Shown here in pieces: positions 26,601 through 52,795 of a DNA stretch of 54,742 nucleotides (position 1 is the first letter of the stretch; each line of letters opens with the position of its first letter). This DNA is from a virus. A model generated the notes under the pieces. That model saw only the letters and a program-made list of their open reading frames with translations, was not told the DNA's origin and did not search any database. A program made the position numbers and the translations under genes. Location of the stretch: the IMG/VR virus record IMGVR_UViG_3300021961_000129, positions 1 to 54,742 of that record; one strand, written 5' to 3'.

Positions 26601-29600
26601 CTCCGTTGGTGTGTATGGATTTTCTGCATAAATTTGTGTAGCTTGATTATATGGACCGTACTTGTGATTAGGACTTGCCAGTCTTGATCTAAAAGAAGTG
26701 GTTCCAGAAGATCCCTGAATTGCTTCACCTACAGTAAATGTTCCACTGACCATTTGAATTTCGATTAGTTTTGGAACAATATATTTGTTCATATCTACAT
26801 TATCAAAAAATGCATATAATTGAGTTTTTGGTTTTAATCTTTTAGCTATAAATTCAATATTTCTGGATCTCATTACATGAATAACTTCAGTCGAAACAAC
26901 TTTAGATCCAAGATCCACAGTATCAAATTGTTCACTAACTTTATATTGAATTCCTTCTCTGCTTTGTTTTGTAGTTGTTAATGTAGTTACATTAGTAAAA
27001 GTTGTATATTGATCTCTATACTTAATATTTGTAGTAATGGGAATGCCTCTGCCATTTTGGAAACTGCCTCTAGATTCACTTCTACCAATTTCTTTGGATC
27101 CAATGAATATTGAACCCATATTTTTTCTACCGGTTTCGGTTGTTCCTGTCCAAGTAGTTTCCCAAGATCCCCAAGTAATTGGAGACAATCCAGTATTACT
27201 ATCAACACCTAATTGTTGTATAGTAGTATTATAACTACCCTCTTGGTCTACTGTTTTTTTAGATCCTTTTGTCTCTATCCATGTGTCTGTAGCCGGATTT
27301 AATTCTATAGCTCCGATCCAATTTACTACATTAAATGGATTTACATTTTCAACTCTTGTAGCAAATTTATTTTGAAGCCACTGAACATCAGTATATTTCA
27401 AACATACTACATCACCCACTTTGACTGTGTTTGGATTGCCCAAATCTTTAACAAATCGCAAATCTGCATCTGGATTAGAAGTATTTGCTACTCCAACAAC
27501 TGCTTCAGACCCCAAAAGAAGATCTATGGAAGTAGTATAATGTTGAGGTCTCAAATTACCTTCTTTGGTATCAATACTACACTTATGTGATGGATCACCT
27601 AAAGAACCAGAAAAATCAGATTTGAAGTTATCTACAAAAAATCCAGTTTTAAATCTATCCAGACCAGTTGTCGCGTCCTTGAGAGTTAAATTCTTAGTAT
27701 CAGATTCGAGTAATGATAAAGAAGTATAATATTCAACATTTTTTAAACGATCATCAATTCTTGTAATATCTTTCATTCTATAACGTTTGTGAGCTGTAAG
27801 TTGTACAGTCACATCATCTTTATTATAGATATATGGAGGTAATAGTATTGTCGCAATTTCCAATGAAGTTTCTACTTCTGGTGGAACTTGTGGATTCAAA
27901 GAAGGATTTCCTTGATTTAAGAAAAATTGACCATTCTTATTAACATAAAGTTTATCAATTCTGCCGAGATAGTACTCATAAGAAACTACTAAATTTTTAT
28001 CTTTTGCAAAGTTATAAGGTGTTGAATTAGTAGAAGAAGTAAAAGTTCTAGCCTTATGTTCAAAAGGAGAATATGTACTTGTTGAATCGTCATATGGTGA
28101 AACTCTTGGTCTTAAATCAATTATATCATTTGCTCTTATCGTTTCTATGAAAGGCAAATCTGTAGAAAATCTTTCTTTATCATAAGAACTAACTATTACT
28201 ACATCTCCATCATCCGAAGGATCAATATAATAACTATTATAAACAATTTTCAATTTTCTAGTTGGTGCAGTAACATTTTCTTTTCTTACGATATACGAAT
28301 AGTCAGCTATTTCTAGTTCCTGACCCGAAAATAGAATAAAATCGGTGACTATATTTCTATCTCCCTCAATCACTGAAGAAACATTGGCAGTTACATTCGA
28401 CTCTTCAAATACTACTTTTTCATCCTTAAGAAAAGTATTTTCATTGATATAAACAAATTCGACTTGATTTGTCCCGTTATTAGAAACTAAAGTTCCTATA
28501 GCGTTACTATTAAGTCCACGAATCAATTCCCCCTTTACAGAGTTCAAAACATTTACATTAAAATTCGTAAGTTCTAATTTTGGAAGATCTGGTTCATTTG
28601 AATCAGAAGACTCAAATATTCCAAGTAAAGAAACTACGTCAGGAACTCTTAGAGAAATATCATTATCTTGAACTCTAGTACCATAAACTGAGCTGTATGT
28701 TAATCCATCACCTAAAGTAGTACTTCCTACTCCAGAAGCAACATTTGAAGATCTGGTAACATTAAGAACTTCACCTCGATTGTATATTTTTTTTCTAGGT
28801 TTTAATTTTTTCTTTTTAAGGGTTGCTGTTAGTACAGCTGATCCATTTTGAGATAATCCGGTTAAAGTAATAGTTCTACCAGATACAGAAACCTGAGAAC
28901 TAGTAAGAGATTCTATATCTCCATTTGAAAAAACTAAATTATAATCTTCCTCATCAAATTCTTCCAGAGTAACATCTAAACCGGTTTCCAATGTTGCTGT
29001 TAGACTATTGGAAGATATAGTAACATCATATGATTTTCTGAACACAATATCTGCGTCATTTAAATTAACAGATGATATATCAGTATTTTCAAAAAGAGTA
29101 AATAAGAATGATTCTTTAGAATTTAGAAGTTCTGGAACAACTTTATATACATCTGACGATGTTATAGATGAAGTTGGCAATCCTCCACTAGAAACTCCAG
29201 CAACAGATGTTGTAGATTGAACAACTATAGATTTTGTTGTTGCATTAACTGAAGAAACTATGTTATATGTTGGAAGAGTCTGACCAGATTTTGTATATGT
29301 AATTATGTCTCCGGTATTAATTCCAACTCCAAAAGTTTTGTAAGAAGATGTTATTGTACTAATGCCACCGGAAGAAGTAGATATTGATAAAGACGATCCT
29401 TGTGGAGCTAATGCTATTGGTTGCGACAGAACAAGATCAGCAGTAAAGGAAGCACCACCATCCAAACTTACTACTTGTCTAGCATCACCAAGAGAATAAT
29501 CTCTAACAGAAGTAATAGTTCTGGAAACATCCTCGCCATTAATTTTTAAGGCCTCATCTACAAGAAATGTTCCTGCAATTTCATATAGAACCAATTGGTT

Positions 29601-32734: not shown

Positions 32735-32741
32735 TATTTAG
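32735..32741 (-). promoter_or_regulatory. Late promoter core CTAAATA fused to the upstream stop codon
   Basis: The minus strand reads AACTAAATAAAG. The TAA (32740-32738) terminates the 4387-residue gene. The gp8 ATG is 21 nt downstream. Confidence 0.6.
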
Positions 32742-35700
32742 TTACTTAAAAGTCCCCTTGTTCTAATAACCTTAGGAGAAGTTGATAAACCACTTATTCC
32801 ATTAAGAGTTTCCGCAAAGAATTTAGCTGGCCCACCTTCAGATAAAGATCTATTTTGGAAATCATAAATTTTACCCCAACTATATCTACCATAAAAATCA
32901 TTTGTTCCAATTCCACTATTATTTTCACCCCTCTTATAAACTTTAATATAATTATCGGTCATTGGAGCAAAATGACAGGTAACTGTAACTATTCCAGAAT
33001 TTGGAGTAGTTACATCTTCAACTCTGTATACTCCATCAATAAAAGTCTTTGCAATTCCAATAATTGAATTTGGAAATTGTCCCATTCCTCCCAATAAAGT
33101 GCTTATTCCTATTAGACTTCCACCAGTTAGTACATTGCTGTCGGTAATCACAAAATAATCTCCTTTTTCCAATTGACTATTATTGATACCAAAAGAACTT
33201 AAAGCAGAATACCCTACTCCTAAAGTACTATTATCATAAGTTTCAGATTTTAAAACAAATTCTATCTTTGGTGATGTAGTTCCTATTCCAGGTGTTCCAG
33301 AAATAAAAGTGTTTATTCCAATAATAACTCCATGATCTCCTTTAACTTTTACCGATCTTATACGCTCAGACGAGAATCTGTCGGGTTCTATCATTACAGC
33401 AGGAGGTTCTGATTGCGAATATCCAAATCCTCCATCAATAATAGTTATTGAAGTTACTATTCCTGTAGTAGAGTTGACTCCAGAAACTGCAGTGGCTCCA
33501 TGGACAACTGGTTCTGAATATATCGCAGTGCCTGCGGATCCTACAGCAATGTATCTACCATTTATACCTAAAGAACTATCAAAAACTAAATCTACAATTG
33601 CATTAGGTTGTAATGTTGATCTTGGAACCCAATTCAATAAGTCAAAAGAATAGAATATATTCCCTAAACTGTTAACAACAACGTAAAAACCATAATTGTA
33701 TTTTATGTTGACCAAATCATCGGTTAAATTGGTAGATAAAACTTCATAAGAATCTCTAGTTATAGATCTCAAAATAACACCATTATTTCCAACAATAATA
33801 AATTTATTTTCCGCATATATAACCTTATTTAAATTAGTTACTACGGGACTTTGATTCAATTCCCAAATTAATCCAGTGTTTGAAGAAACTATAGTACCAT
33901 CATTTCCAATTGCTACAAAATAATCTACCCCAAAAGTAACACTATTGAGATCTCTAAGAGTTCTGGAGAACCTGTTTATAAATCTATCCGTATGTATTCC
34001 AGATCCAACAAATATTGATCCTGCAGCTCCAACAGTAACCCAAGTATTGGATGTTGAACTATAAACAATATCATTAAGAGTTCCAGAATAACCACTTATA
34101 CTTTGGCCAGCAACTCCAAAACCAGGAATAGAAATATCAACATATTTGTCTATCTCAGTCCAAGTAGAAATAGTATTCGAATATCCTACCGATTTTGCTA
34201 TTTTTCCAAAAGATCCTACAGAAATAATAATATCAGAGTTTCCAACTCCAACAGAATATAAAGACTTAAAGTTTGTTGTAGCGCCCAATCCGATATTTCC
34301 AGTTTGCCAATTTATACCATCTTCACTGTCTGCATACAAAGAACTATTACCAACAGCAATTACTCTCTTGCCAAAAATTATAGAATTAAATCTAGAAAAA
34401 GTAGTAATTCCGATAATATTGTCAGATCCTTTCCAGTTATAAATTGGATCTTTAATTTTTATAGCAGAGACTGATATGTTAACTACTGGAGAAAGAGAAA
34501 TTCCATATCCAACTCCAGGATATTCTATATTAATTGCAGAAACGGAAGAAGCAGAGGAAACCACGGAAGTTGCTTGAGCTGGTTCAATAACTTTACTATC
34601 AAAGATAACAACATCTCTCAAATCCTCCGACAAACTATCGGTTCCATCAAAGAATGGGAAAACATTATCGACATAAATTTGTGTATCTTCAAGTTCAACA
34701 TTTCTTATTAATGATGCATTTGGTTTTATTATACTCTGCAAACTTGGTCTTGCTTTTGAATATAATGTTCCATTAATTATCCTATCTTTTTTCTGTTTTC
34801 TCCAACGCAATGGTCTATTTTTAGTCGAATCTGTATCAATACCAACACTACTGTAAGTGAATGTATCTAATTGATCTGAAGAAGTTATTTTTTTAACAAC
34901 TCTTTCAAATTGTGTAATATCAAATAGATCATCTGCACTTTCCTCAATAATAATTTCATCTCCGATTTTAATTGTTTTTGGTGGATCCACTTCCTCAACA
35001 TCAATTGATGATCCTCTATAATATAATATGGTACATTTTGATCCTGGTTTTGGTGCCTCTTTAAATGAAACTCTACTTCCTTGGAATGTATAGGCGTCAA
35101 TGGGATTTTGTAATATATCATTAATAAAGATGAAAATATTATTTGTTATATCCAAATCAGACCCAGTAAGTGTTTTAAGACTTAGAATTTGTTTAACACC
35201 ATTTACTTCAACTACTAAACTAAATTTCTTTCGGAATCCATTGAAATTTGAAGAAATATCTTCGAATAGAATAAACTGACCAGGATAGAAGGAATGGAAT
35301 TTATCAGTTTCGACTTCTTCAACAGTAATTCTAAATTCACTAAACCCAACACCAACATTTGGATCTGTTGTTATTCCTGAGACTTTAAGAATATCGCCAA
35401 CTCGATATCCTTTGCCAACCTCATCAAATTTGAATGATATTATACTAGATCCCATACCAACTTCAACAGTAACCTTTGCATCCTGACCAACTCCAGAACT
35501 TCCAGTTATATAAGAAACCGGTAGATTACTATATCCAGTAGGTATACCAATGTTTATAATTGGTAAAGATGTTGATGTATATCCAGAACCAGCATTTACA
35601 ATTGTAAATCCAGTAATTGTACCACCAGAACCAACTGTTGCTGTAAAACTAGCTCCTGTACCAATGGTGGAAGCGATACTAATTGCAGGAGGATTTCGAT

Positions 35701-38700
35701 ATCCACTTCCATTTCCAATAAGTGTTATTGTGGAAATAGTTCCAGAAGCAGAAACAGATACAGTTGCAGCTGCCCCTATTCTTGGTTGATACCCAAATCC
35801 TGTGGTAATTGCAACTTTGGATATTCTTCCTGCAGATGGAGTACCAGATAAGAATCTTATTACATTATTCGGAGTTCCATCAATAGTAAAATCTGATTGA
35901 GGAACTTGGAAAACATTGTTTATAAAAACAAATGGATTATTGCTAATATTTGTTGCACTATTAACATCATTAAATAACACTTCAGTATTTTCACCACCAG
36001 ATTTTAAAGTAAATTCTGTGGCTGCTATTCCTGTAAAAGATAAAGATATATCATCAACTATAATATTTTTATTTTTCGGTTCCGAAGCATCAAAAGATCT
36101 AGAAAAAACTCTTCCCGCAAAAATTGACCCTGTTTGTAGTCCTATTGGTCCTATTTTACCATAAGGAGCTGTACTAAAGTGAATAATATCCTTGACAATA
36201 TTGAAATTACCAGTTAAAACTGTACCAGAAACTCCAACCGTATGAATTCCGGTGTTACTTCCTAAAAATCCTCTTTCAACTTCAACAAAATTGGAAGAAG
36301 TCACTCCAGAAGACTTTACTAACATATACTCTTCACTAAAATTCAAAATATCTCCTGTTTTTAATGAAGATATTCCTGAAGTTATTTCCAAAATTGTTGT
36401 TGATGAAGTAGAAACTGGAGATCCTAGATTTACAATTAAAGATTTTCTCGTTAAAGGGCTTTGAACTACACCATCAACAGATATTATTGAACTGCTGTTT
36501 GGATCTTTATAACTAAATATATGATTCCCTGTACCAAGTCCAGTAATATCTAGAGTTGTACCAGAAGTAGATAATCCAAAAAGTCTAAATTGATTATCAT
36601 TTAATTTAAAGACAAATAGTGACTTAGGAAGTACATTTGTTCCCAATTCTGAAGGACTGAAGGATACATAGTCATTTGTAGATCCCCCAAGATATGTACC
36701 AGCAACAGATATTATAGACGTATATGCATATCCAGAAGCTCCATATACTACTTTTACATCCGAAATATAACCAGAATTATTTCTAGTTATATTAAATAAA
36801 GATCCACTAAGATCTGTAGAAGGCACATTTGTATAAACTTCATTTGCTCTAGTTTGAATTCCTGTAGGTCCGACTTTCGAAACAACAAAACTGAGATCGT
36901 TTGTTGGTGAACTCCCTCCCAAATAAGTTCCGGCTACAGAAACTACATCACCAACAGAATATCCTTCACCACCAGAAACTAAAACTAAAGAAGTTGAAAT
37001 TGGTTGGCCGGTAGTAACATTATAAGAAATGAAAGCATTAAATTTAGCATCTGTACCTATTCCACTTGTGGCCAATCCAACAACTTGGAGATATTCTCTA
37101 AAACTTGGCCCAGCAGGAACAAGTACTGTAGATATTCCCGTTATAGATGTTTGTATAGCTACTGGATATCCTTGTTCCAATATTGCAGTTCCTGTTAAAT
37201 TGGAGTTATCGATATTCATTAAAACAGAAGTAATACCAATAACATATGAAGTTGTGGCGATTCCAATAGGACTTCCATCTGTTTCATATATTAATTCGTG
37301 ACCTGTTTGGAAATTGTGATTTGGAACAACAAAGGTATTTGTTTCTGATGATATTCCATTAACACCAGAATTAGAAGATTCGATAATATGGCTAAAGAGT
37401 GGAGTTCCTTTATTTTTTAATTTAAATGTACTTAGTCCAACTATTTGACCACCTCTGGTTAAAGATGGATAAATTATGGAACTTGGTGCTGCAGTAGTTC
37501 CAATTCCAATTATTGATGTTATTATTCCAACATAATTTCCTATTGCAGTCCAAACATCAGCACAACAATTTTCACTATACGTAGGACTACAAACTTCATC
37601 AGATAAAATTCTAGAATCTATATATTGTGTAGTTGAAATAAAAGCTCTTTGAATTGAACCGCCATTTACATAATTATGTGTTATAGTTGATGGTCCTGGA
37701 TTTATTCTAAATCTTGTGGAATCAATAATTTCAACTTCATAAACAAATCCTTTTGGAGACAATGGACCATTTCCATCTGGACCATTCCCCAAATTCGGGA
37801 AAATAGCTGTGTTTATTCCGCCGCCAGAATCACAAGAAAATACCAAATCTTTCAACACAACATAATTTTTTGTTGTAGTAGAAAGTCCATGACTAGTTGT
37901 GGTTCCTACAGTAGCGATACCAGTTATGTTATTATAAACAACAGAAGAAACTCCAACAGTATTTGCAAGTTGATATGATGTTTTCACACCAACGTTATTG
38001 ATAATATATTTCGATAAATCTACGATATATTTGAATCCAGATATAGTTTCTATAGTTTCTCCACTTACGTAATTTGTGCCAATTCCACTCCAATAAGCTA
38101 ATCCAGCTTCTATTGATTTATTGTTTGATTTATATTTAACATCATGAGAAACTGCATCGATAATATATCCAACATCCCTTTTACAAATACTTCTATCCCA
38201 GTCAATATTTGTAGTTATTCCTGGATAAGTAGCTGTGATAAATCCAACAACTTCTTCCATGATAAAATCTCTATTTGACTGAAGTAAATCGGAAGCATCA
38301 GCATATCTACCATCTACTTGCTGTAAAGAAGATCCATCAAATTGATCCGATATATCGTCAATTCTAAGAACTTTATTTGTTTTATTAAGAATAAATGGTC
38401 TTAGATTGATTCCATCATTAAAATAAACCGATTCTACGGAACCATCTTCTAAAGTAGTATCTTCATACACTCTAACAAAATTTGGCCTATCATACATAGA
38501 AATTTCATTATCAAGATTAATACTTAAAGAAGAATCAGTTTGTAATATCTTAGGCTTCATGTTAGTTGAATTGGAAGATCCAACAACTGTAGGTTCAGTA
38601 TAAATTACAAGATCGGAAAACTCTTTAAATCCTGAAGGGTGTACTGTAGATCTTACAGATTCTCTCCATATGTTATATGGAACATCGCTCTTTATAGAAT

Positions 38701-41700
38701 AAGAAAATTTCTGATAATAAAAATTATCGGAAATTCTTTGTTGATAATCATTCAAAATTCCAACAGCATTATCAACTGAAGAAACCTTGTCTCTAAATGG
38801 ACCTAAAGTTGATTTTAAATCAAATATATTGAAATATTCAACAACCCCTTCAATTTTTGAATTTTCCCCATAAATTTTATCACCAACACTTAATGCACCA
38901 AAACAATCATTCAACCTAAGTTGATTTAATTTGTTATCCCAACCGTTCTCCATTACAACGGCACTAAAAGTTCTGGAAGTAACTTTTTCTGTTGACTTAT
39001 AACTGGCCTCATCATTTAAAACCATTTCTAAAATAGGCATATCTTTTTTATTGATTACAATGCCTAAGTTTAGTTCATCATTATAAACTCCAAATGTTCC
39101 GGTGGATATTCCGGACATGTCATATGTCAAAGTATTATTTGATGTGTTTACACCTACAACAGGGAAAAATGCGTAATTATATGAAGATGAATTAAAATTG
39201 GCATCTGATTTAGTTTCAGAAGTTAATCTGCAATTTTCTATAAAAATTTCATCTCCAATTGAAAATGGAAATTTCACTTCAGTTGATCCATATCCAGTTG
39301 TTATCAATGGGTTAGATCCTGGAGTATTACTTAATTCTAAAGTAACTAATGAGGAAAGATATGTAATATTATCAATTTCATATCCGTTAGAATTTCTAAT
39401 TGAAATAATTTCCAGAGGTGACCCTAGAGATGTTGAATTTTGAACTATATCAACTTTAGAAACGGATCCATTGTTCAGATAAGATCTAAGTTTTATATTA
39501 GGATTATCCTTAACTAGTAATTCTGGTGGATTATTATATTTTACTCCCCCGGATATAATTTCAATTTTTTCAATAGTTCTAATATCTTTTATACCACAAA
39601 CTGTAGGAACACTAAGTCTTGGAGATAAAGTAGGATCTGTAGGATAATCAAATCCATCTTTAATTCTTTCATAGGAGGCTACTCTACCAATTTTTGGAGA
39701 TATTAACTGAATTACAGCATTGATTCCATTTGAAGTATTAATTTCTTTAATAAATGGAAGTTTTTTGTATCCTCTGCCTCCAAAATTAATTCTTAGATCA
39801 TGAATAGGACCGGAAGCAGATAGAGAATTTGTAGTATATGTATATTCGCTAGAATTTAAGCTCGTAAGTTCAAAGTAATCCAGTTCCTTGTTAATGTTAA
39901 AAGATAATTTTTTATTATCCACAACATTTATAATAAACTTGGAATTTAATGAGTGGTTTACTATTTTTACTTTATTATTTCCAAAAACAGTAGTATCAAA
40001 ACTTAATTGTTTTTTCGATTCTTCAACTGGATTTTTAGAAACTAAATTATAATAAAATACAGCAGGAAAATGTTTATTTGAAGTATCTAAAGTAACATAA
40101 GCCTGACTATTTCCAGGAGTTCCATTTCTAACTATAGCAAAAGTATCATCAACAGATCCAATGATATCTAGCCTTCTTGAACATTGAGAATCGGAATAAA
40201 AATTCAAATCCAAATCTAAAAGACTAGAATCGGATAAATCAAATTTAATAATACTGCCTTTGAAAAATTCTAATGGAGGATTAATAAAATAAAGTTGCTG
40301 AGAAGATGATCCAGTAGAAGAAAATATTATGTTATTGGATTTTTTAATATCACTTTCAAAAGCACATAACTTTATTTTATTAAAATCTTCCTTTAAAACA
40401 TAATAAATTCCTCCATTTAATAATCCATTTATTGGAGTAGATGCAAAGTAAACTACCTTATCACCTGTTTTTACTTTTATATTAGAAGAAGACAAGTCAA
40501 TTGTACTGTCTTGTCCATCCATTACGTCCGAGTTGGAAAAAATTATCTCATTTGCTAATAATTTTCTATTAATTGCATCATATTTTAATTTTACTTCATT
40601 GGTAGAAGTACTTAATATTTTAAAGTCAATAGAATCACCAGATGACAATTCATGATTTTCAGAAGTAGTTACTATTCCAGAAGATCTCTGTAGTATTCCT
40701 TTTATTTGTGGGTTTACTGTTGCGAGAGAATGAGCATATCCTATAACACCAAAAGCCTCGGTCAAATTCCAAAATTCCAAAGAATTAAAGTTTGTACCAA
40801 TTCCTGAAGAAGTTGTAAATCCTAATGTAGACAATCCGACATAATTTTTACCAAGATTTACAGCATAAACTTTCTGATTTTGTTCTAATTTAAAAGATAT
40901 TCCAGAACCAACATTGTTTACATATAAAGAAGTTCCTGCTATTCCTGGATGATAAATTAATTCTTGACCTGTAAAGAATTTATGTCCAGGTAAGTATATA
41001 CTTCTTTCAGGAATAAACCTGGATTCTATAGAAGAAGTACCTAATCCAACAATACTTCTTACTACGCCTGCAGTTCCTGTACCGACAGATTCTTTTGGAT
41101 CAAAAAATGTTACTTTATTTTCTAAACTAAGATCATTTGTTAAATTTTCTATTTTAAACTCAAATGTTTTTGGTAATAGTGTAACGCTTTCTATACCAAC
41201 AGTATGAACTCCTGTATTTTCTAATCTATTTACATAAAATCCAGATTTCTGAGATGATACTCTAGTAATTAATAATCTTTCTGTTCCTATTCCTATAAAA
41301 TCATTGTCATTAAATCCACTAACATCTTTTACTGATATAAATGTGGAAACTCCAGTATTGGCTTCAATATCAATATTTTCTAAAAGATCTACTGTTTTAT
41401 TAACAACTTTAATCTTTCTAAGACCCTCTAAAGAAGAAGCTGTAATTGTAGATATTCCAGAAATCAAAATAATTTCATCATTTACAAGACCATGAGGAGA
41501 ATCGCAAATTCCTGTAACTTTTGTACCTCTAACAATAAAAGATATATTTTCGATTTTCTCATTGTTAATAGAAAACTGAGAAACTTCCTTACCTTTAACT
41601 TCAGAAACTACAATATTAGCTCCTGTACCTTCAGTTTCAGTATTATCTAAAACTACAAAGTCATTAACTTTATATCCAGTCCCTGGTGAAAATATTGATA

Positions 41701-44700
41701 CGCCTTCGATATTAGAAGATTCAACATCATAAACTCTAAATTCCTGTTTATATACATCAGAAACCTTATCAATAAGTTCATAAGAAGAATTTGGATTTTC
41801 TAAGTAGTACGGAGCAATATTTCTACTTAAACTGGTACTGAAAATATTAAAATCTTGATTAAATTTTGGAATGAAATTATTTTCGACTGGAATATCATAA
41901 AACTTTGGTCCAACTACATATGGATAAACCGGGGTAGCAATATTGGTTGCATCTATGTTTACCGAATAAAAATAAGCGTATGTTCCGTTAGGATATTGTG
42001 GAGTTACACAAAATCTTCCATTATTTTCATCTAGATCATTTGAACCAGTGTATTCGTAATCATTTACAAAATAACCTGGTTCAAATGATTGTGGTCTCAA
42101 TTGTGGATTGGTTATTAAATTTAAAATATAACTAGATTTTATTTGTTTTACAGGCCCACCAAGAGTTTCACTAAAACCATATGGACCGTATATTGGATTT
42201 CCATCATATGCATATCCTAAAATGGGAGAATGGGATAATTTTCCAGAAACTTCTTTATTTGTCTCAGTAAAATTATCGGAAAGAGAATATCTTAATTTTT
42301 TAGGAATATAAAAATTTATATATTGTAATTCTAGATCTTTGTTTTTGTTAGGGTATATAAATCCGTCATCTTCGGGAAGTATTTGATTTTTTAATTTTAC
42401 AACTTGATTTATTTTCCACTCAGTAACATTTGCCAAAAATTTGGCATTAATTCCTCTATTAGTAAGAGTAAGTTGAGTATCAGAAGTTCCATATCCAATT
42501 CCACCTCTCAAAATATTAACAGATGTTAGTTTACCATCGGAATCCACAATCGGATCAATCTCAGCAAAAGATCCAGATCCTGAAATAACAATATCAGAAT
42601 CTTTTCTATATCCTCTGCCTTGATTTATTATTTTAACATCAACAATTGTTCCATTAATAACAATTGGTTTTAATATTGCTTGTGATTTTACACTAGAAAT
42701 ACCAACATTTGGCCTCTTATGGAAATTTATAATATCTGTACATCCATAGGAAACTCCACCATCTTCAAGATAAACATCTACAATTGAACCTAAAACAATT
42801 GGTTCTAAAATTGGTTCAATTATAGTTGTTGATCCAATTGCTGATGTACTTTCTATTTGTATTTTAATAGGAGGATATCCAACAATATGTGTACCCAATC
42901 CCAAACTATTAAATTTTGAATAATTTTTTTCAATAAAGTTTAAATTACTTAAAGTAGTACCAATACCAGCAGGAGCTAATTTAAATTTATTGGAATCTAT
43001 AACATCCACATAATAATATATTGAAGTTGATAATCCAGATATAGGAGTACCCGTGGTAGAATATTCTACCAAATCTCCATTACCAAATCCGTGATTTTTA
43101 GCAAAAAAGTAAGAATCAAAGGTATTAATTCCAATAGTATTATTATCAGCAGATAAAATAGAAGGAACTTTAATCTTCCTATTTGAATATCCTTGACCAG
43201 AATCTTTTACGTAAACTTCCGTAATGGTGTTTTTATTTTTTAATGAATTTAAATAATGAATTCCAGAACTAATTCCTGAAATATTAATTTCATTTTGTTT
43301 ACTTATAGAATCATTAAGATTATTATATAACTTAATAACATTATCAGTTAATATGCCGACATGATAATGTGCTCCATCCACAAATCCAGGAACTGGAGAA
43401 TTAGTGTTTGAATCATAAACTATTTCTTCCCCATCCTCAAAAAGAACTCTATTTAAAAATGTGATGGTATTATTTGCTATACTTACATCATTATCCGCTT
43501 TAAATCCAATTTGAATTCTAGATTTGACTAAATTAGATTCCAGAGAACATCCTCTGCCATTTCCCCCACTAATGGTAATTTTTGGTTTGGATTGATAACC
43601 TACTCCTGGAGAAACAATTTTTATTTTTTTAATACTTCCCGATAAATTCACATGGGCTTTTGATAATCTACCATTATCATCGATAATTTCTATTGGTGGT
43701 GGAGTAACGACATCGTAATTTTCGCCAGTATTAATTACTTCAATGGATTGCAAACTACCATAGTAAATATTTTCATCAAAAAGTGTTGGTGACAATAACT
43801 CAACTCCATTTGATAAAAGACCCAAAGCTCTGTCGTTAGTTGTTCTTTTATTTGGATCATCAAATAATCTAGAGTTTGAAAATAAAGGGAATTGTTTGAC
43901 GATTTTTTGATTCTTTAAAGTTTTATTTTCAAATCCGGCTTTCACAACTTGATCTGAGGTTATTCCGGATTTTACATTTATATATTTTTTAGAAAAAACA
44001 TCAGATTTACTATAAGATAATTTAAAATTATTTGCATCCACTCTCGTTACATAATAATAACCAGTTGAAATTCCGGAATCTGGATAATATGAGTTATAAT
44101 AGAGAACATCACCAGACACATAATTATGTGACGGAGTATTAAAAACTGTAGTAATTCCGGAACCTTGGGTACTTACTATTTTTTTATTATCTGTAACAAA
44201 AATTGTATAATTGGGAGTTCCGGTAGAAGTAACATAAAAATTAGATTGATCACTATCAATATAAGTATTTTGAACTCCTGACGGTATTATATTAGAATCC
44301 GGAAAATAATTTGAATAATGATTGGTTTTGTAAATTTTCTTTCTTAAATATTTTGCCTTGTTAATATCAAAATTTTCGTTTAAATTCTGTATTAAAACTC
44401 TATTTGAAAATCTTCTTATTCTATCTCCAGTTTCAAATTCTACAGTAACAATTTTTACTTCTACTTTATTACTATTTTCATCAATTAATTCAACAACCTC
44501 ATTTTGATAAAAAGCAACAGAATCATATAAAATGATTCTAAACTTATTTGTATCTACTTGAGAAGTTAGTTTGATGTTATGTGTTGTTGGTAGATTATAA
44601 ATCCAACTATTAAATTGAACAGAACTTACTAAATTTTTTCCAAATCCAGAAAGTTTAACCCTATCACCAACTCTCATACTAGAAGTAGAAGAGAAATCTA

Positions 44701-45901
44701 CAGTATCAATAACATTAATGATTCTAAAATTTACTGGAGTGGTATTTCCTATACCTACATAGCTAAAAGCAAATTTATTTTCAACAATATCCAATCCATA
44801 TTTAAGATCTTTAGTTATTCCACTGACATCTAAAAACTGATTTGTTGTTTTATCACCATATGTCAACTCAATAAAATCAGAATTTTCAGGTTTTACAAGT
44901 ATTTTTCCACTTTTTGAAAATCCAATAGTAGAATCAACTAAAATACTATTAGATCCAGAGGGAACTTCTTCTAAAATTTTAGTTTTGCCAGATACTTCAA
45001 AATTGCCTCTTAGAGACGTAGAATCTAATGATATCTCATAAAAAGATTTATTATCGACCGGTCTATATTCTACATTAAAAATAGATGCACTTACTGTACC
45101 CACACCGGAAATGTTTTGATATAAAAAATTACCTCTAATACTTATCGGATCTCCACCAGAAATCTTTTCTACAAGAATATTTTTTGTAGAGAAGAAAGAA
45201 TTTGAAGATGGAACTAAAGTATAATCTTGTGGTTTTATAATTTCAATATCTTTTCCATATAAAATTTTAAATAAAAGTTTATATGAAGAATCCGTACCCT
45301 TTGAAATATAAAAATCTTTAGCACTGGTTAATATATTTTCAATTGAAAGTCCTTCAGAAAAATCTCTATTTTCAAATCCAGGAAAAAATTCATTTTTAAA
45401 TTTTTCAAAAAAGTTAGTTAAGAATAAATTGCTTAAGTTTAAAACTGTAGAGTTGACGAAATGTTCTGAAGTTTGAGTTTCAGAAAAATTTAAAAATTCA
45501 GATTTTTCTAAAGATTCAATTCTGTCAATACCACTAAATCCTCTTACACAACCATTAAAACTATTTGTAGTTTTTGATGTATATGTAATAATTTCGTCAT
45601 CTATTTTAAACAATCCATATGAATCTGGCCAACCGCGTGTAGACTCAACGTATATAATATCATCAAATGCAAGAACGTCAGAAGTTAAAATTGTAGATTT
45701 CTGTAGGTCTATAGAATTGAATTTTTCTATATTTTTATATTTTTTGACATTGACAGCTAAGTCAATAGCACCAGACTGATGTTCTAATGACTTATAGTAT
45801 TGTCTCAAAAATTCAACAAATAATGGAGACTCTTGAGATAGAAATTCTGGAATCTGAGACTCCAGTATGGCATCGATTTTAACTCTTTTAATTTCTGACA
45901 T
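32738..45901 (-). CDS. Giant baseplate-associated protein, 4387 aa, with YHYH and beta-propeller-like regions
   Basis: The N-terminus (VKIDAILESQIPEFLSQESP, LFVEFLRQYYKSLEH) and residues 150-230 (FFEKFKNEFFPGF, YKLLFKILYGKDIEIIKP) resemble the conserved start of large cyanophage baseplate proteins, some labelled VrlC-like. Position between gp6 and gp8 is that of T4 gp7; homology to gp7 is not shown. Near residue 1230 is a YHYH-type core (GYAYDGNPIYGPYGFSE). Many GxGYxxxPxIxI units are scattered through the protein. Residues about 2555-2640 carry one CKRDVGYIIDAVSHDVKY module also found in the tail fibre. Residues about 3830-4130 repeat VGxxGxIxxS(x)GxxW, a YCF48/BNR-like propeller. The C-terminus contains YGRYSWGKIYDFQNR. 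Confidence 0.8.
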   Translation of the reverse strand: MSEIKRVKIDAILESQIPEFLSQESPLFVEFLRQYYKSLEHQSGAIDLAVNVKKYKNIEKFNSIDLQKSTILTSDVLAFDDIIYVESTRGWPDSYGLFKIDDEIITYTSKTTNSFNGCVRGFSGIDRIESLEKSEFLNFSETQTSEHFVNSTVLNLSNLFLTNFFEKFKNEFFPGFENRDFSEGLSIENILTSAKDFYISKGTDSSYKLLFKILYGKDIEIIKPQDYTLVPSSNSFFSTKNILVEKISGGDPISIRGNFLYQNISGVGTVSASIFNVEYRPVDNKSFYEISLDSTSLRGNFEVSGKTKILEEVPSGSNSILVDSTIGFSKSGKILVKPENSDFIELTYGDKTTNQFLDVSGITKDLKYGLDIVENKFAFSYVGIGNTTPVNFRIINVIDTVDFSSTSSMRVGDRVKLSGFGKNLVSSVQFNSWIYNLPTTHNIKLTSQVDTNKFRIILYDSVAFYQNEVVELIDENSNKVEVKIVTVEFETGDRIRRFSNRVLIQNLNENFDINKAKYLRKKIYKTNHYSNYFPDSNIIPSGVQNTYIDSDQSNFYVTSTGTPNYTIFVTDNKKIVSTQGSGITTVFNTPSHNYVSGDVLYYNSYYPDSGISTGYYYVTRVDANNFKLSYSKSDVFSKKYINVKSGITSDQVVKAGFENKTLKNQKIVKQFPLFSNSRLFDDPNKRTTNDRALGLLSNGVELLSPTLFDENIYYGSLQSIEVINTGENYDVVTPPPIEIIDDNGRLSKAHVNLSGSIKKIKIVSPGVGYQSKPKITISGGNGRGCSLESNLVKSRIQIGFKADNDVSIANNTITFLNRVLFEDGEEIVYDSNTNSPVPGFVDGAHYHVGILTDNVIKLYNNLNDSISKQNEINISGISSGIHYLNSLKNKNTITEVYVKDSGQGYSNRKIKVPSILSADNNTIGINTFDSYFFAKNHGFGNGDLVEYSTTGTPISGLSTSIYYYVDVIDSNKFKLAPAGIGTTLSNLNFIEKNYSKFNSLGLGTHIVGYPPIKIQIESTSAIGSTTIIEPILEPIVLGSIVDVYLEDGGVSYGCTDIINFHKRPNVGISSVKSQAILKPIVINGTIVDVKIINQGRGYRKDSDIVISGSGSFAEIDPIVDSDGKLTSVNILRGGIGYGTSDTQLTLTNRGINAKFLANVTEWKINQVVKLKNQILPEDDGFIYPNKNKDLELQYINFYIPKKLRYSLSDNFTETNKEVSGKLSHSPILGYAYDGNPIYGPYGFSETLGGPVKQIKSSYILNLITNPQLRPQSFEPGYFVNDYEYTGSNDLDENNGRFCVTPQYPNGTYAYFYSVNIDATNIATPVYPYVVGPKFYDIPVENNFIPKFNQDFNIFSTSLSRNIAPYYLENPNSSYELIDKVSDVYKQEFRVYDVESSNIEGVSIFSPGTGYKVNDFVVLDNTETEGTGANIVVSEVKGKEVSQFSINNEKIENISFIVRGTKVTGICDSPHGLVNDEIILISGISTITASSLEGLRKIKVVNKTVDLLENIDIEANTGVSTFISVKDVSGFNDNDFIGIGTERLLITRVSSQKSGFYVNRLENTGVHTVGIESVTLLPKTFEFKIENLTNDLSLENKVTFFDPKESVGTGTAGVVRSIVGLGTSSIESRFIPERSIYLPGHKFFTGQELIYHPGIAGTSLYVNNVGSGISFKLEQNQKVYAVNLGKNYVGLSTLGFTTSSGIGTNFNSLEFWNLTEAFGVIGYAHSLATVNPQIKGILQRSSGIVTTSENHELSSGDSIDFKILSTSTNEVKLKYDAINRKLLANEIIFSNSDVMDGQDSTIDLSSSNIKVKTGDKVVYFASTPINGLLNGGIYYVLKEDFNKIKLCAFESDIKKSNNIIFSSTGSSSQQLYFINPPLEFFKGSIIKFDLSDSSLLDLDLNFYSDSQCSRRLDIIGSVDDTFAIVRNGTPGNSQAYVTLDTSNKHFPAVFYYNLVSKNPVEESKKQLSFDTTVFGNNKVKIVNHSLNSKFIINVVDNKKLSFNINKELDYFELTSLNSSEYTYTTNSLSASGPIHDLRINFGGRGYKKLPFIKEINTSNGINAVIQLISPKIGRVASYERIKDGFDYPTDPTLSPRLSVPTVCGIKDIRTIEKIEIISGGVKYNNPPELLVKDNPNIKLRSYLNNGSVSKVDIVQNSTSLGSPLEIISIRNSNGYEIDNITYLSSLVTLELSNTPGSNPLITTGYGSTEVKFPFSIGDEIFIENCRLTSETKSDANFNSSSYNYAFFPVVGVNTSNNTLTYDMSGISTGTFGVYNDELNLGIVINKKDMPILEMVLNDEASYKSTEKVTSRTFSAVVMENGWDNKLNQLRLNDCFGALSVGDKIYGENSKIEGVVEYFNIFDLKSTLGPFRDKVSSVDNAVGILNDYQQRISDNFYYQKFSYSIKSDVPYNIWRESVRSTVHPSGFKEFSDLVIYTEPTVVGSSNSTNMKPKILQTDSSLSINLDNEISMYDRPNFVRVYEDTTLEDGSVESVYFNDGINLRPFILNKTNKVLRIDDISDQFDGSSLQQVDGRYADASDLLQSNRDFIMEEVVGFITATYPGITTNIDWDRSICKRDVGYIIDAVSHDVKYKSNNKSIEAGLAYWSGIGTNYVSGETIETISGFKYIVDLSKYIINNVGVKTSYQLANTVGVSSVVYNNITGIATVGTTTSHGLSTTTKNYVVLKDLVFSCDSGGGINTAIFPNLGNGPDGNGPLSPKGFVYEVEIIDSTRFRINPGPSTITHNYVNGGSIQRAFISTTQYIDSRILSDEVCSPTYSENCCADVWTAIGNYVGIITSIIGIGTTAAPSSIIYPSLTRGGQIVGLSTFKLKNKGTPLFSHIIESSNSGVNGISSETNTFVVPNHNFQTGHELIYETDGSPIGIATTSYVIGITSVLMNIDNSNLTGTAILEQGYPVAIQTSITGISTVLVPAGPSFREYLQVVGLATSGIGTDAKFNAFISYNVTTGQPISTSLVLVSGGEGYSVGDVVSVAGTYLGGSSPTNDLSFVVSKVGPTGIQTRANEVYTNVPSTDLSGSLFNITRNNSGYISDVKVVYGASGYAYTSIISVAGTYLGGSTNDYVSFSPSELGTNVLPKSLFVFKLNDNQFRLFGLSTSGTTLDITGLGTGNHIFSYKDPNSSSIISVDGVVQSPLTRKSLIVNLGSPVSTSSTTILEITSGISSLKTGDILNFSEEYMLVKSSGVTSSNFVEVERGFLGSNTGIHTVGVSGTVLTGNFNIVKDIIHFSTAPYGKIGPIGLQTGSIFAGRVFSRSFDASEPKNKNIIVDDISLSFTGIAATEFTLKSGGENTEVLFNDVNSATNISNNPFVFINNVFQVPQSDFTIDGTPNNVIRFLSGTPSAGRISKVAITTGFGYQPRIGAAATVSVSASGTISTITLIGNGSGYRNPPAISIASTIGTGASFTATVGSGGTITGFTIVNAGSGYTSTSLPIINIGIPTGYSNLPVSYITGSSGVGQDAKVTVEVGMGSSIISFKFDEVGKGYRVGDILKVSGITTDPNVGVGFSEFRITVEEVETDKFHSFYPGQFILFEDISSNFNGFRKKFSLVVEVNGVKQILSLKTLTGSDLDITNNIFIFINDILQNPIDAYTFQGSRVSFKEAPKPGSKCTILYYRGSSIDVEEVDPPKTIKIGDEIIIEESADDLFDITQFERVVKKITSSDQLDTFTYSSVGIDTDSTKNRPLRWRKQKKDRIINGTLYSKARPSLQSIIKPNASLIRNVELEDTQIYVDNVFPFFDGTDSLSEDLRDVVIFDSKVIEPAQATSVVSSASSVSAINIEYPGVGYGISLSPVVNISVSAIKIKDPIYNWKGSDNIIGITTFSRFNSIIFGKRVIAVGNSSLYADSEDGINWQTGNIGLGATTNFKSLYSVGVGNSDIIISVGSFGKIAKSVGYSNTISTWTEIDKYVDISIPGFGVAGQSISGYSGTLNDIVYSSTSNTWVTVGAAGSIFVGSGIHTDRFINRFSRTLRDLNSVTFGVDYFVAIGNDGTIVSSNTGLIWELNQSPVVTNLNKVIYAENKFIIVGNNGVILRSITRDSYEVLSTNLTDDLVNIKYNYGFYVVVNSLGNIFYSFDLLNWVPRSTLQPNAIVDLVFDSSLGINGRYIAVGSAGTAIYSEPVVHGATAVSGVNSTTGIVTSITIIDGGFGYSQSEPPAVMIEPDRFSSERIRSVKVKGDHGVIIGINTFISGTPGIGTTSPKIEFVLKSETYDNSTLGVGYSALSSFGINNSQLEKGDYFVITDSNVLTGGSLIGISTLLGGMGQFPNSIIGIAKTFIDGVYRVEDVTTPNSGIVTVTCHFAPMTDNYIKVYKRGENNSGIGTNDFYGRYSWGKIYDFQNRSLSEGGPAKFFAETLNGISGLSTSPKVIRTRGLLSN

Positions 45902-45902
45902 T

Positions 45903-47771
45903 TTATCTTACTTTCTTTCCGTTTAAATAACTTGATGTTGCAACATATTGTGTGGCAGAAATATTTTCACCAGAACTAATAGTATCTTCAATCATATTTA
46001 CCACAGAATTTTGAACGTCAACTTGTAAATACAAATCTTTTAATCCTATTACATCATTTGATTCTGGTATTGCTTGAATTTCAATAAAACCATTTGACAA
46101 AGAAGATGATGTAATGTTAACTACATCAAGAAGGATTTCTCCCCTTCCATAATCTACTGATCCTGCAGTATTCTTAACAAGAACAGGAATATTATTTTCT
46201 AATTTAAAGAAAAATATTTTTCCTGTATTTTCGGAAACTTGAACGTCAGCCATGTAAATGACTTCCGAAACTCCGTCAATGGTAAAACCAGTTGATTTAA
46301 TAGAATATCCATCTTTTTTAATATGAATTTTATTTCCAAAACATATTTCATAAGTTGCAAAAGTATTTAAGGCGGGAGTTAGATCCCTTCTCATTTTAAC
46401 TTTAGTTATATTAGATGTAATGGATTTATCCGAATTATCTATAAGTGAAACAACTTTACTATATTTGAATCTTCCTCCAAAATTATTCACATCAGATGAA
46501 CTTGAATATGTAGTTAATGTGTTTAAAACTTTTGAACGTACTAATTCGGGTCTTGTTGAAGCATTAACATTATAGTAAACAGTACTATCGACTTCAACAT
46601 AAAGATACGATAGATCTATAATTTCTGGTCTAATTCCCGCAATAGAGTATTGTTTTAACGATCTGATAATATCCTGTTTAGTAATCTCAGACAAAAAGTT
46701 ACCATTTCTTGGCTTAATAGATATAAAAACTTTACCATACTCTGGTGGATCTAATTCTTCTCCGCCATATGCAGTAACAGAATCAACATTTGGATAAATG
46801 TATGGGATTAAACCTTTATAATCATTTGATGTTACGGCTCTAAATTGTGAGGCGTAAATTCTTGGGGCTAAATATTTGATAGAATCTATACTTTCAATTT
46901 CATCCCCATTTTGTGATGGAGATTCCGTAATCAAAAGTGATATACCAGAAGTTACGTCAAATAAATTATTATCTACCAATCTTCCAGAAAAAGTAAAATT
47001 GCTAGCTCCATTTCCAGAAGTTCCATTAGTTACAATATAACTTACCTCAATTCTACTATTATTACTTGGACGTTTTCCTAAAATATTATCACCAAATAAA
47101 ATTTCATACTTTTGATCTGATATTTCTTGTATCAAAAATATTCTAGAACTGGAATTTACATTTAAAATATTATTATATGCGGTATAAATTTCTTCAACTT
47201 CATCAATAACCTTGACTCTTATTGTAGAAGTGTCTATATTGGCATTAGGTAATATAAATTTTTGATTTGGTTGTGAATAATTTACTATAAAAGTACTTGT
47301 TAAATATACTCCTTCATATATTTCTAAGTTGGAAAATAGAGCTTTGCCGTTTGAATCGACAGGAGTAGTAATATCTTCCGGTATAGAAAAAATATAATTA
47401 CCATTTGTTACAGCACCAAGAGCTACTTGGCCTGCAAATATTTTTACAGTTCTGGCATTAGTTTGACTCATGTCAATACTAAATGTTACTTTTGCTTTTG
47501 AAGATCTCTTTGATCTAGGAACATATCCAATATTACGTGCAAGGGAGACAACATTTTCTCTAAGAGATGCACTATCAAGAAAAACTTCATTAACTGCCAT
47601 GTTTGTGTTGTAGGCAGTCAAATAACTATTATATGCTAATAAATCAATCAACGTAGAAAAGTTAGAACCTTCAAAATCAAAATCAGTGAAATTGCTATTG
47701 GCACGCAAATAATCTTTGATTTGAGTTCTTAGATCCCCGAAGTCTAAATTTGTAAATTGATTGAATGACAT
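45903..47771 (-). CDS. gp6: Baseplate wedge protein gp6
   Basis: The 622-residue protein (T4 gp6: 660) starts MSFNQFTNLDFGDLRTQIKD and has the hallmark LIDLLAYNSYLTAYNTNMAV then NEVFLDSASLRENVVSLARN, GYVPRSKRSSKA. Further features: FGDNILGKRP near 230 and PRIYASQFRAVTSNDYKGLI near 310, typical of the gp6/J-like baseplate family. gp6 forms the ring joining wedges in the baseplate inner part. Its ATG overlaps the stop of gp25 (TAATG), showing tight coupling. It is followed after one base by the giant 4387-residue gene. Confidence 0.93.
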   Translation of the reverse strand: MSFNQFTNLDFGDLRTQIKDYLRANSNFTDFDFEGSNFSTLIDLLAYNSYLTAYNTNMAVNEVFLDSASLRENVVSLARNIGYVPRSKRSSKAKVTFSIDMSQTNARTVKIFAGQVALGAVTNGNYIFSIPEDITTPVDSNGKALFSNLEIYEGVYLTSTFIVNYSQPNQKFILPNANIDTSTIRVKVIDEVEEIYTAYNNILNVNSSSRIFLIQEISDQKYEILFGDNILGKRPSNNSRIEVSYIVTNGTSGNGASNFTFSGRLVDNNLFDVTSGISLLITESPSQNGDEIESIDSIKYLAPRIYASQFRAVTSNDYKGLIPYIYPNVDSVTAYGGEELDPPEYGKVFISIKPRNGNFLSEITKQDIIRSLKQYSIAGIRPEIIDLSYLYVEVDSTVYYNVNASTRPELVRSKVLNTLTTYSSSSDVNNFGGRFKYSKVVSLIDNSDKSITSNITKVKMRRDLTPALNTFATYEICFGNKIHIKKDGYSIKSTGFTIDGVSEVIYMADVQVSENTGKIFFFKLENNIPVLVKNTAGSVDYGRGEILLDVVNITSSSLSNGFIEIQAIPESNDVIGLKDLYLQVDVQNSVVNMIEDTISSGENISATQYVATSSYLNGKKVR

Positions 47772-48169
47772 TAGACTCTACTAGGTTGTAATACGAAATC
47801 TATAGTTTGGTTGGGAAATGGAAGCCCAACAATATTATATTTAATACTGACATTCAAATCATTAGAATCTTCAGGATAAGAAACTAATACTGACGATAAT
47901 TGAATTCTAGGTTCAAAATTTTTTAATAAAGTTTTGATTTCTAGTTCCAATGAACTCGCCAGTTCAGGTGTCTGAAGTTCGAAAACAGAGTCTTCTGTTT
48001 GCGTACCGATTAAATTATTAAAAAATCTTTCACCTACTCTCGTTTTAACTAAATTTATTACAGATTTTTTAATAGAATCCGCATCATTTAATGATAAAAT
48101 ATCGTTTGTGACAGGATTTCTCACAAATGACAGACTAATATCTTTAAATTTGCGAGAAATACTGACCAT
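47771..48169 (-). CDS. gp25: Baseplate wedge protein gp25
   Basis: 132 residues, the same length as T4 gp25. It has the gp25/gpW family pattern: FKDISLSFVRNPVTNDILSL, then SVINLVKTRVGERFFNNLIG, with ELxxxLExEIKTLLKNFEPR and a C-terminal LNVSIKYNIVGLPFP. Known role: a central wedge protein that with gp6 and gp53 holds the sheath-proximal baseplate. The lysozyme-like family name reflects a distant similarity, not activity. AATAAATA lies 16 nt upstream of its ATG. Confidence 0.93.
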   Translation of the reverse strand: MVSISRKFKDISLSFVRNPVTNDILSLNDADSIKKSVINLVKTRVGERFFNNLIGTQTEDSVFELQTPELASSLELEIKTLLKNFEPRIQLSSVLVSYPEDSNDLNVSIKYNIVGLPFPNQTIDFVLQPSRV

Positions 48170-51125: not shown

Positions 51126-51429
51126 TCATAATATCGTTTTGAATATTTATTGAAACCCTGTGGGAGTTTTGTGGCCGGCAAAAAAATTTTTGAATACTTA
51201 TGGCTTTTCGAGCGCTTTTTGGGGTCGTTATAGATTAGGGTAGTGAGCGTTTTTTATTTTAGGGGGCCACCGCGCCCCGCGCTATAACAAACCGCCCGCC
51301 AAATAACTGCTCAAACTGCACGAAGACAACGAGCATAAGAACGCAGAAGCTTTTCGTTGTCGTGTAACGAATAGCTGTGTCCCCTCCAAGTGCTCATAAG
51401 CCTCAGAGGGGACTGCTGCTCATAAGCCC
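51126..51429. other. Gene-free boundary segment with two hairpins
   Basis: No credible gene. It separates A+T-rich late genes from the G+C-richer right block. It contains a GGGGGCC/GCGCCCC patch (51269-51288), an inverted repeat GACAACGA/TCGTTGTC (51325-51332 and 51354-51361) that can extend with CACGA/TCGTG, and a second inverted repeat GTCCCCTC/GAGGGGAC (51379-51386 and 51406-51413). The loop of the second carries CTCATAAGCCTCA. The second hairpin lies just after the 81-residue gene in the sense of transcription and may act as its terminator, though no T-tract follows. Confidence 0.5.
51144..51151 (-). promoter_or_regulatory. Putative late promoter AATAAATA
   Basis: The minus strand reads TTTCAATAAATATTC, 19 nt before the ATG of the oxygenase-like gene. 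It is the most upstream late-type core in the window and marks the right edge of the late block. Confidence 0.45.
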
Positions 51430-51997: not shown

Positions 51998-52195
51998 GTG
52001 TGTTCCTCTCAACATGGCTAAGATACCAGGCCTGGCTCCCTCTGGCATCTTTTGTGGCCAGTTGTACGGCTGTCCATAATGTCTCGGATCTCAGCTAATC
52101 TATGGTATACTCATGATCCTCTGTGGCTTGAGCTTAACATAAGCACTCTAGCCTAAGCTTAAGCACTCAGCCCTTTTATGAAACTCCACAGAGTA

Positions 52196-52225
52196 ATTAT
52201 ACAAGCCTCAGAGGGCTTATGTCAA
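52196..52225 (-). promoter_or_regulatory. Consensus sigma70 promoter with palindrome in the spacer
   Basis: On the minus strand TTGACA (52225-52220), an 18-nt spacer and TATAAT (52201-52196). The spacer contains the near-palindrome AAGCCCTCTGAGGCTT, overlapping where an operator would be expected. It would drive the 92- and 81-residue genes about 200 nt downstream. Such host-RNA-polymerase promoters fit early phage genes. Confidence 0.7.
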
Positions 52226-52262
52226 GAGCTGAACTTCTGTTCTCTTGGAGTGCTCATGAGGC

Positions 52263-52581
52263 TGTGGAAAAAGTATAAAAGTTTTCCACAGATTCCTCAT
52301 AAGGCTGTGGAAAACTCCAAGGACTTATGTGTAGCAAATTGTCAAGGTTCTGGGAGTTACTTTGTGTGCGTCCGGAGACTTATGTCGGGGGTCTCTTGAC
52401 ATTTATGCGATCGTGTGATAGCCTGCCCGCTTAGATCACAAGGTCTCAGAGGCTTTTTCATAAGCTATCAGAGGGGCCACAGAGAGAACAACTAGAGAGA
52501 AAGCTTAAACACAGCTATGTTTTTTTAGCCATTTATTTTAAGCTTAATTTTCCACAGCTTTTTCAACAGCATTGTGGAAAA
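52263..52581. promoter_or_regulatory. Five cyanobacterial-type DnaA boxes (TTTTCCACA)
   Basis: Exact matches at 52263-52271 (minus), 52282-52290 (plus), 52306-52314 (minus), 52548-52556 (plus) and 52573-52581 (minus). Boxes 1 and 2 form a perfect 10-bp inverted repeat CTGTGGAAAA/TTTTCCACAG around a 10-nt spacer; boxes 4 and 5 also face each other. TTTTCCACA is the DnaA box described for cyanobacterial oriC. DnaA binding here is inference. Confidence 0.55.
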
Positions 52582-52666
52582 GCTTTCAAAACTCATTGTT
52601 AGCAACTCTTTGAGGACTAAGAGTATGTAACTCCACTCCTCTCTAGGTGTTGTTTCAGTGGAGAGC

Positions 52667-52795
52667 TTATGGGTCATAAGACTCAGCATCTACACTACCT
52701 TGAGAGCAATCATCATAGAACAGCTCTTCCTCTGTTTTATTCGCATAGTGATCCATGATCTCTTGCTCAAAGTCAAAGAAAGCTTCTTCGTTCAT
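52667..52795 (-). CDS. Acidic small protein, 42 aa
   Basis: ATG at 52795 overlaps the TGA of the 61-residue gene (ATGA). The protein MNEEAFFDFEQEIMDHYANK continues TEEELFYDDCSQGSVDAESY and ends DP. It has about 14 acidic residues in 42 and a single Cys, and may be a small inhibitor-like or DNA-mimic type protein, but that is speculation. It is the last gene before the control region. Confidence 0.55.
   Translation of the reverse strand: MNEEAFFDFEQEIMDHYANKTEEELFYDDCSQGSVDAESYDP

Follow-up and report, generated by a model that had tools for sequence, protein, structure and literature searches.

The window analysed here, a 54,742-base IMG/VR record of a T4-like cyanophage most closely related, among annotated phages, to myoviruses of Synechococcus and Prochlorococcus, raises the question of what a group of host-type DnaA boxes does in the genome of such a virus. 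T4-like cyanophages are among the most abundant viruses of the ocean, and the control of DnaA in cyanobacteria is linked to growth and to the day-night cycle. We know of no T4-like cyanophage in which a replication origin has been mapped, nor of a DnaA-dependent mode of initiation in the T4 family. Among open-licence papers, no report was found of DnaA boxes in T4-like cyanophages, nor of the second conserved element that is described below.

As an earlier note on this DNA had claimed, five exact copies of TTTTCCACA lie within 319 bp of gene-free sequence (Table 1), all of them inside the intergenic gap 51998-52666. Boxes are not equally frequent elsewhere, the remainder of the 54.7-kb record containing zero further copies. 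About 1.2 copies per 54.7-kb window are expected by chance (dinucleotide shuffles), and five in the whole window were reached by 0 of 100 shuffles; together with the 9-mer ranking anchored on gp25 and the permuted 9-mers anchored on the second element, both given below, this rules out chance clustering. The array consists of a TGTGGAAAA-N10-TTTTCCACA pair, a third box 24 bp on, a gap of 242 bp and a TTTTCCACA-N16-TGTGGAAAA pair, and has no close same-strand pair of its own. A conserved block, TTGACATTTATGCGATCGTGTGATAGCCTGCCCGCTTAGATCACAAG, with GTGAT/ATCAC inverted arms, occupies 52395-52441 between the two halves and is also present in S-SCSM2R, a phage without boxes. No support was found for a 73-aa plus-strand ORF (52178-52399) that would run across the first boxes. 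Elsewhere in the window, gp6 is located at 45903-47771 on the minus strand, and the structural gene region includes three very long minus-strand ORFs (5993-16834, 23607-31112 and 32738-45901; 3613, 2501 and 4387 aa), which probably encode tail or fibre proteins.

Table 1. Positions of the box array and of neighbouring features in the window
Feature	Position	Strand	Remark
Baseplate wedge gene gp25 (positional anchor)	47771-48169	-	Pfam PF04965 E=7e-12; PHROG 261 E=1e-41
Second conserved noncoding element; core CTACCCTAATCTA at 51231-51243	51185-51330	-	present in about 80 loci
DUF7249 gene, downstream of boxes and promoter	51719-~51997	-	Pfam PF23907 E=5e-35
Sigma-70 consensus promoter TTGACA-18-TATAAT, 12/12	52196-52225	-	38 bp from box 1
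Boxes 1 and 2, CTGTGGAAAA-N10-TTTTCCACAG	52262-52291		palindromic pair
DnaA box 1, TTTTCCACA, arm of palindromic pair	52263-52271	-	exact match
DnaA box 2, TTTTCCACA	52282-52290	+	exact match
DnaA box 3, TTTTCCACA	52306-52314	-	exact match; 24 bp from box 2
A+T-rich stretch, possible unwinding element, statistically unremarkable	52517-52551		83% A+T
DnaA box 4, TTTTCCACA	52548-52556	+	exact match
DnaA box 5, TTTTCCACA	52573-52581	-	exact match
42-aa gene, other border of intergenic region	52667-52795	-	homologue SSCSM2R_91 (S-SCSM2R_91)

The 9-mer is a documented cyanobacterial DnaA box (PMC4674748, PMC6323995), for which binding by DnaA domain IV has been shown in Cyanothece and which has been footprinted in the Cyanothece oriC (PMC4674748). 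When the palindromic pattern was searched in bacterial genomes, many phyla were matched, and 19 of the 22 cyanobacterial loci examined adjoined dnaN, i.e., oriC. Spacing is also similar: in phages, most neighbouring boxes on the same strand are separated by 11-12 or 21-22 bp, and in cyanobacterial clusters the usual distances are 9, 11 or 21 bp. A 19-bp divergent pair is found in both groups, whereas 13-bp divergent pairs and most convergent pairs are phage-specific. These spacing counts, which cover 74 distinct layouts, are inflated by near-identical relatives, so the pairs are not fully independent. The published box, the oriC-like spacing and the recovery of host origins beside dnaN by the same pattern strongly support the designation as cyanobacterial DnaA boxes. 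On the host side, tandem TTTTCCACA pairs at 11-12 bp are found in genomes of the family of a small picocyanobacterium, and the variant TTCTCCACA is mixed into some picocyanobacterial clusters. Several picocyanobacterial stretches (L575-L583, L568-L571) have 2-4 boxes including an 11-bp tandem pair, in a layout repeated in several genomes and with dnaN not found in the stretch; they may represent a displaced oriC or a DnaA-regulatory site of marine Synechococcus and Prochlorococcus.

The array is not private to this contig, as matches in IMG/VR and in annotated phages demonstrate. Among 80 IMG/VR loci with the DUF7249 gene, those of the closest relatives that extend far enough upstream have 3-7 boxes located 240-740 bp upstream of that gene, which bears out the expectation that the cluster would be found at the same place in related phages. 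One relative (L009) is identical to the window at this locus. The distance between boxes 2 and 3 is 24 bp in both of these and 14 bp in L010-L012 and L014, a difference of about one helical turn, and the 19-bp divergent pair is preserved in most close relatives although box positions shift. More broadly, the pair CTGTGGAAAA-N4..20-TTTTCCACAG is present in 81 IMG/VR stretches, its spacer being nearly always 4 or 10, mostly within clusters of 3-12 boxes. Similarity searches of annotated phages with two such palindromes mainly returned Synechococcus phages and cyanophages, the matches often falling where no gene is annotated. Among named Kyanoviridae, 3-4 boxes are found about 4-8 kb upstream of gp25 in ACG-2014d, Syn1, S-CAM22, S-RIM44 and S-PM2, and the genera with boxes in this neighbourhood include Lowelvirus, Alisovirus, Vellamovirus and Nodensvirus; S-CAM4 has a single box there.

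A survey that fetched IMG/VR loci by gp25 alone and ranked all 9-mers by the number of loci with at least 3 copies within 600 bp upstream placed TTTTCCACA first. It was clustered in 12 loci, all among the 39 with more than 3 kb of upstream sequence, and the runners-up were its own overlapping extensions. Seventy-six copies were counted in 285 kb upstream of gp25 versus 5 in 535 kb downstream, and the array keeps to one neighbourhood, 2-6 kb upstream of the gene. A second survey, anchored on the second element, found at least 2 boxes within 2 kb in 11 of 33 loci, compared with an average of 0.02 loci for 400 permuted 9-mers; it is less independent, the element having first been found in box-bearing phages.

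Presence of the cluster is patchy even among relatives. No box cluster was found in P-SSM2, S-SCSM2R or S-CAM9, the S-PRM1 locus beside its DUF7249 gene is without boxes, host-type variant boxes near gp25 were looked for in P-SSM2 and not found, and S-SCSM2R is without boxes although it ranks among the isolates closest to the window at this locus. On a gp25 tree of 44 rows, cluster presence changes at least 11 times, 5 of these changes being forced by well-supported branches, and part of this patchiness may be due to variant boxes or to contigs whose upstream sequence is short. The changes on the tree imply that the cluster is dispensable, and its patchiness that it is not a universal origin. 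In one relative (L304), the five boxes at 3.0-3.1 kb upstream of gp25 all read TTCTCCACA in place of TTTTCCACA, and their layout resembles that of L302; such a concerted change is expected if a single protein reads all five boxes.

That protein would be the DnaA of the host, since the checked phages encode none: a search for the DnaA C-terminal domain (domain IV, PF08299) gave no match in nine phage genomes and a positive result in the cyanobacterial control, and a phage-encoded DnaA was thus rejected for these nine. Judging from box identity and spacing, host DnaA probably binds the boxes, and its binding would be co-operative, aided by spacings of about whole helical turns. What the bound protein would do is a separate matter. 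The explanation that we consider best, with a little over even confidence, is that this host-type array acts in the control of phage replication, most likely as an origin.

The most credible alternative, although an unlikely one, is that the array is no origin and that host DnaA bound to it would activate or repress the adjacent sigma-70 early promoter, in which case early gene expression would be coupled to the replication state of the host. The promoter matches the consensus perfectly at 38 bp from box 1, is conserved in six relatives (L010, L011, L014, L015, L018 and L060), and is oriented away from the array, reading into the DUF7249 gene. Consensus promoters also lie within 200 bp of 38 of the 57 distinct clusters, at a density of 1.66 per kb versus 0.43 per kb overall, a comparison confounded by the intergenic position of clusters against a mostly coding background. 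Against a transcriptional switch, the boxes of the window are situated more than 35 bp upstream of the -35 hexamer and extend over 320 bp, and clusters of up to 12 boxes are large for such a purpose. Near the promoter, repeated AAGCCTCAGAGGG / CATAAGCCCTC motifs (51398-51410, 52203-52215 and nearby) may form an operator, and one of them sits in the promoter spacer.

Titration of DnaA, in which the array would act as a sponge so that multiplying phage genomes pull DnaA off the host oriC and stop host replication, appears improbable. Large arrays of up to 12 boxes in a lytic phage would be in line with it, and patchy presence suits an accessory function. The lack of a distinct unwinding element also agrees with titration. 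The A+T-rich stretch that the earlier note placed next to the boxes does exist but is ordinary, with 3.3% of all 30-bp windows equally rich, and across cluster zones A+T richness was not above background (A+T maxima at mean percentile 0.42). A sponge, however, could sit anywhere, whereas the array is fixed 2-6 kb upstream of gp25 with phased spacing, and T4-like phages usually destroy the host DNA anyway.

A third possibility, which we regard as somewhat more remote than titration, is that the sites belong to a phage-encoded initiator or repressor and merely resemble DnaA boxes. Perfect palindromic pairs with a spacer of 4 or 10 do resemble dimer operators, and spacer 4 was unseen in cyanobacterial pairs. 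In addition, unrelated repeats occupy about the same place in other lineages: four box-less loci (L463, L503, L514 and L526) have a different repeat family 1.1-1.7 kb upstream of CTACCCTAAYCTA, the motif of the second element. These repeats in box-less relatives, including L483, are TTCTTTATACT-type sites in both orientations or AATTGTTTATA spaced at 35 bp, and another box-less relative has a 23-bp tandem repeat at its far contig end (L333:13872-14021). Yet the 9-mer is exactly the cyanobacterial box, single boxes and tandem boxes spaced as in the host occur as often as palindromes, and box-less phages belong to several lineages, so that a private protein would also need repeated loss or gain.

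Least probable of all are RNA hairpins or a DNA-packaging (pac) site, with the palindromes as stem-loops or marks for the start of packaging: the palindromes of the window do form good RNA folds (z about -4) and a rise in S-PM2 read density has been read as terminal redundancy, but boxes repeated on one strand at 11 or 21 bp, which is how phage boxes are most often arranged, cannot pair as hairpins and thus favour a protein array, a T-tract terminator at the array was looked for and not found, and the exact specificity for host DnaA would be left unexplained. In S-PM2 (AJ630128), the boxes lie at 19231-19264, which is 4 kb beyond the ORFanage, a deletable region (genes 017-050, about 5.8-15.4 kb). 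According to Puxty et al. 2015 (PMC4503421), read density is 2-3x higher starting directly downstream of the ORFanage, which its authors attribute to terminal redundancy. This rise, downstream of 15.4 kb and on the same side as the boxes, may mark a packaging end or an origin, and for virion DNA terminal redundancy is the more fitting reading of the two. The deletion mutant S-PM2d is uninformative as a natural knockout, its deletion sparing the boxes.

The second conserved noncoding element provides a further landmark. Its motif CTACCCTAAYCTA (51231-51243, minus strand) lies within a noncoding stretch, the core ACTACCCTAAYCTAYAA is nearly invariant, and copies occur at L289:7820, L372:9102 and L373:6980. 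Four complete isolates (ACG-2014d, S-CAM22, P-SSM2 and S-PRM1) each have one copy, a copy with one mismatch is similarly placed in Syn1 and S-RIM44, and no exact match was present in the other complete phage genomes checked. In cyanomyoviruses, the box-less P-SSM2 among them, the element lies upstream of gp25, and where both occur it is about 0.1-1.6 kb from the boxes on the gp25 side. A known RNA family was rejected because Rfam gave no match. The element may be a promoter, an origin or a packaging site.

Returning to the origin, it appears to be the best single function because of the constant neighbourhood, the size and phasing of the array, the conserved element nearby and the other repeats in four box-less loci. 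The array would belong to a region of replication control, next to a strong early promoter of host type, a setting to which the conserved noncoding element about 1 kb off on the gp25 side would also belong. Its most likely use would be to help open and load the phage origin early in infection, after which recombination-dependent replication would take over. DnaA binding, origin activity and this timing are what we infer from the sequence. Several observations count against an origin: in five complete phages whose genes lie mostly on one strand, GC skew displays a local dip at the cluster and no clean switch, A+T content is ordinary, the cluster is patchy, T4 is without it, and the promoter fits a transcriptional role equally well. 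The reading of the earlier note is supported in part: the identity of the boxes is strongly in its favour, whereas an origin that recruits or titrates DnaA is an inference, with the missing skew switch, the unremarkable A+T stretch and the patchiness on the other side.

As a more general and tentative proposal, which we think possible rather than probable, a large part of the T4-like cyanophages may initiate or license replication with host DnaA at a dedicated origin upstream of gp25, at a locus that swaps initiator-binding arrays between lineages (DnaA boxes or other repeats) while keeping the conserved noncoding element, the type of origin perhaps depending on the host. If this were true, part of the T4 family would depend on the host initiator, and phage replication would be tied to how much DnaA the host cell contains. 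In any case, the locus is a precise, testable origin candidate in the laboratory-grown isolates S-PM2, Syn1, ACG-2014d and S-CAM22.

Compared with cyanobacterial oriC (Synechococcus elongatus, Anabaena and Cyanothece), the phage clusters share the identical 9-mer, the grouping of several boxes, the 11 and 21 bp same-strand spacing and the 19-bp divergent pair. They differ in having no adjacent dnaN or dnaA and no enriched A+T-rich unwinding element, in the convergent pairs that are common in phages and rare in host oriC, and in the 13-bp divergent pair that is frequent in phages only. Bacterial loci of the datA type, which titrate DnaA, are similar as clusters of DnaA boxes away from oriC, whereas the cyanophage array is carried by a lytic phage and fixed at one gene neighbourhood.

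T4 itself initiates at several origins, some by R-loops, including the R-loop origins oriF/ori(uvsY) and oriG as well as oriE with 12-nt iterons of unknown function (PMC3016281). A promoter at the site, repeated sites like those of oriE and, for oriF, which is annotated beside gene 25, a position near the same gene as the cyanophage boxes are common to these members of one phage family. In contrast, oriF lies on the opposite side of gene 25, the oriE iterons have no known binding protein, and T4 origins are without a DnaA-box cluster; none was found in the T4 genome, and an equivalent with E. coli boxes was rejected, the genome having three scattered TTATCCACA only. Of what defines a T4 R-loop origin, a promoter with a transcript able to prime replication and an unwinding element downstream of it, the perfect sigma-70 promoter (52225-52196) is observed, and assignment of the array to a T4 origin class would be hypothetical. 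Pseudomonas phage 254 also has a region with predicted DnaA boxes, an origin predicted by Ori-Finder (PMC11512268); that case is a software prediction in a single genome, whereas the exact host-type boxes of cyanophages recur, helically phased, across many related phages.
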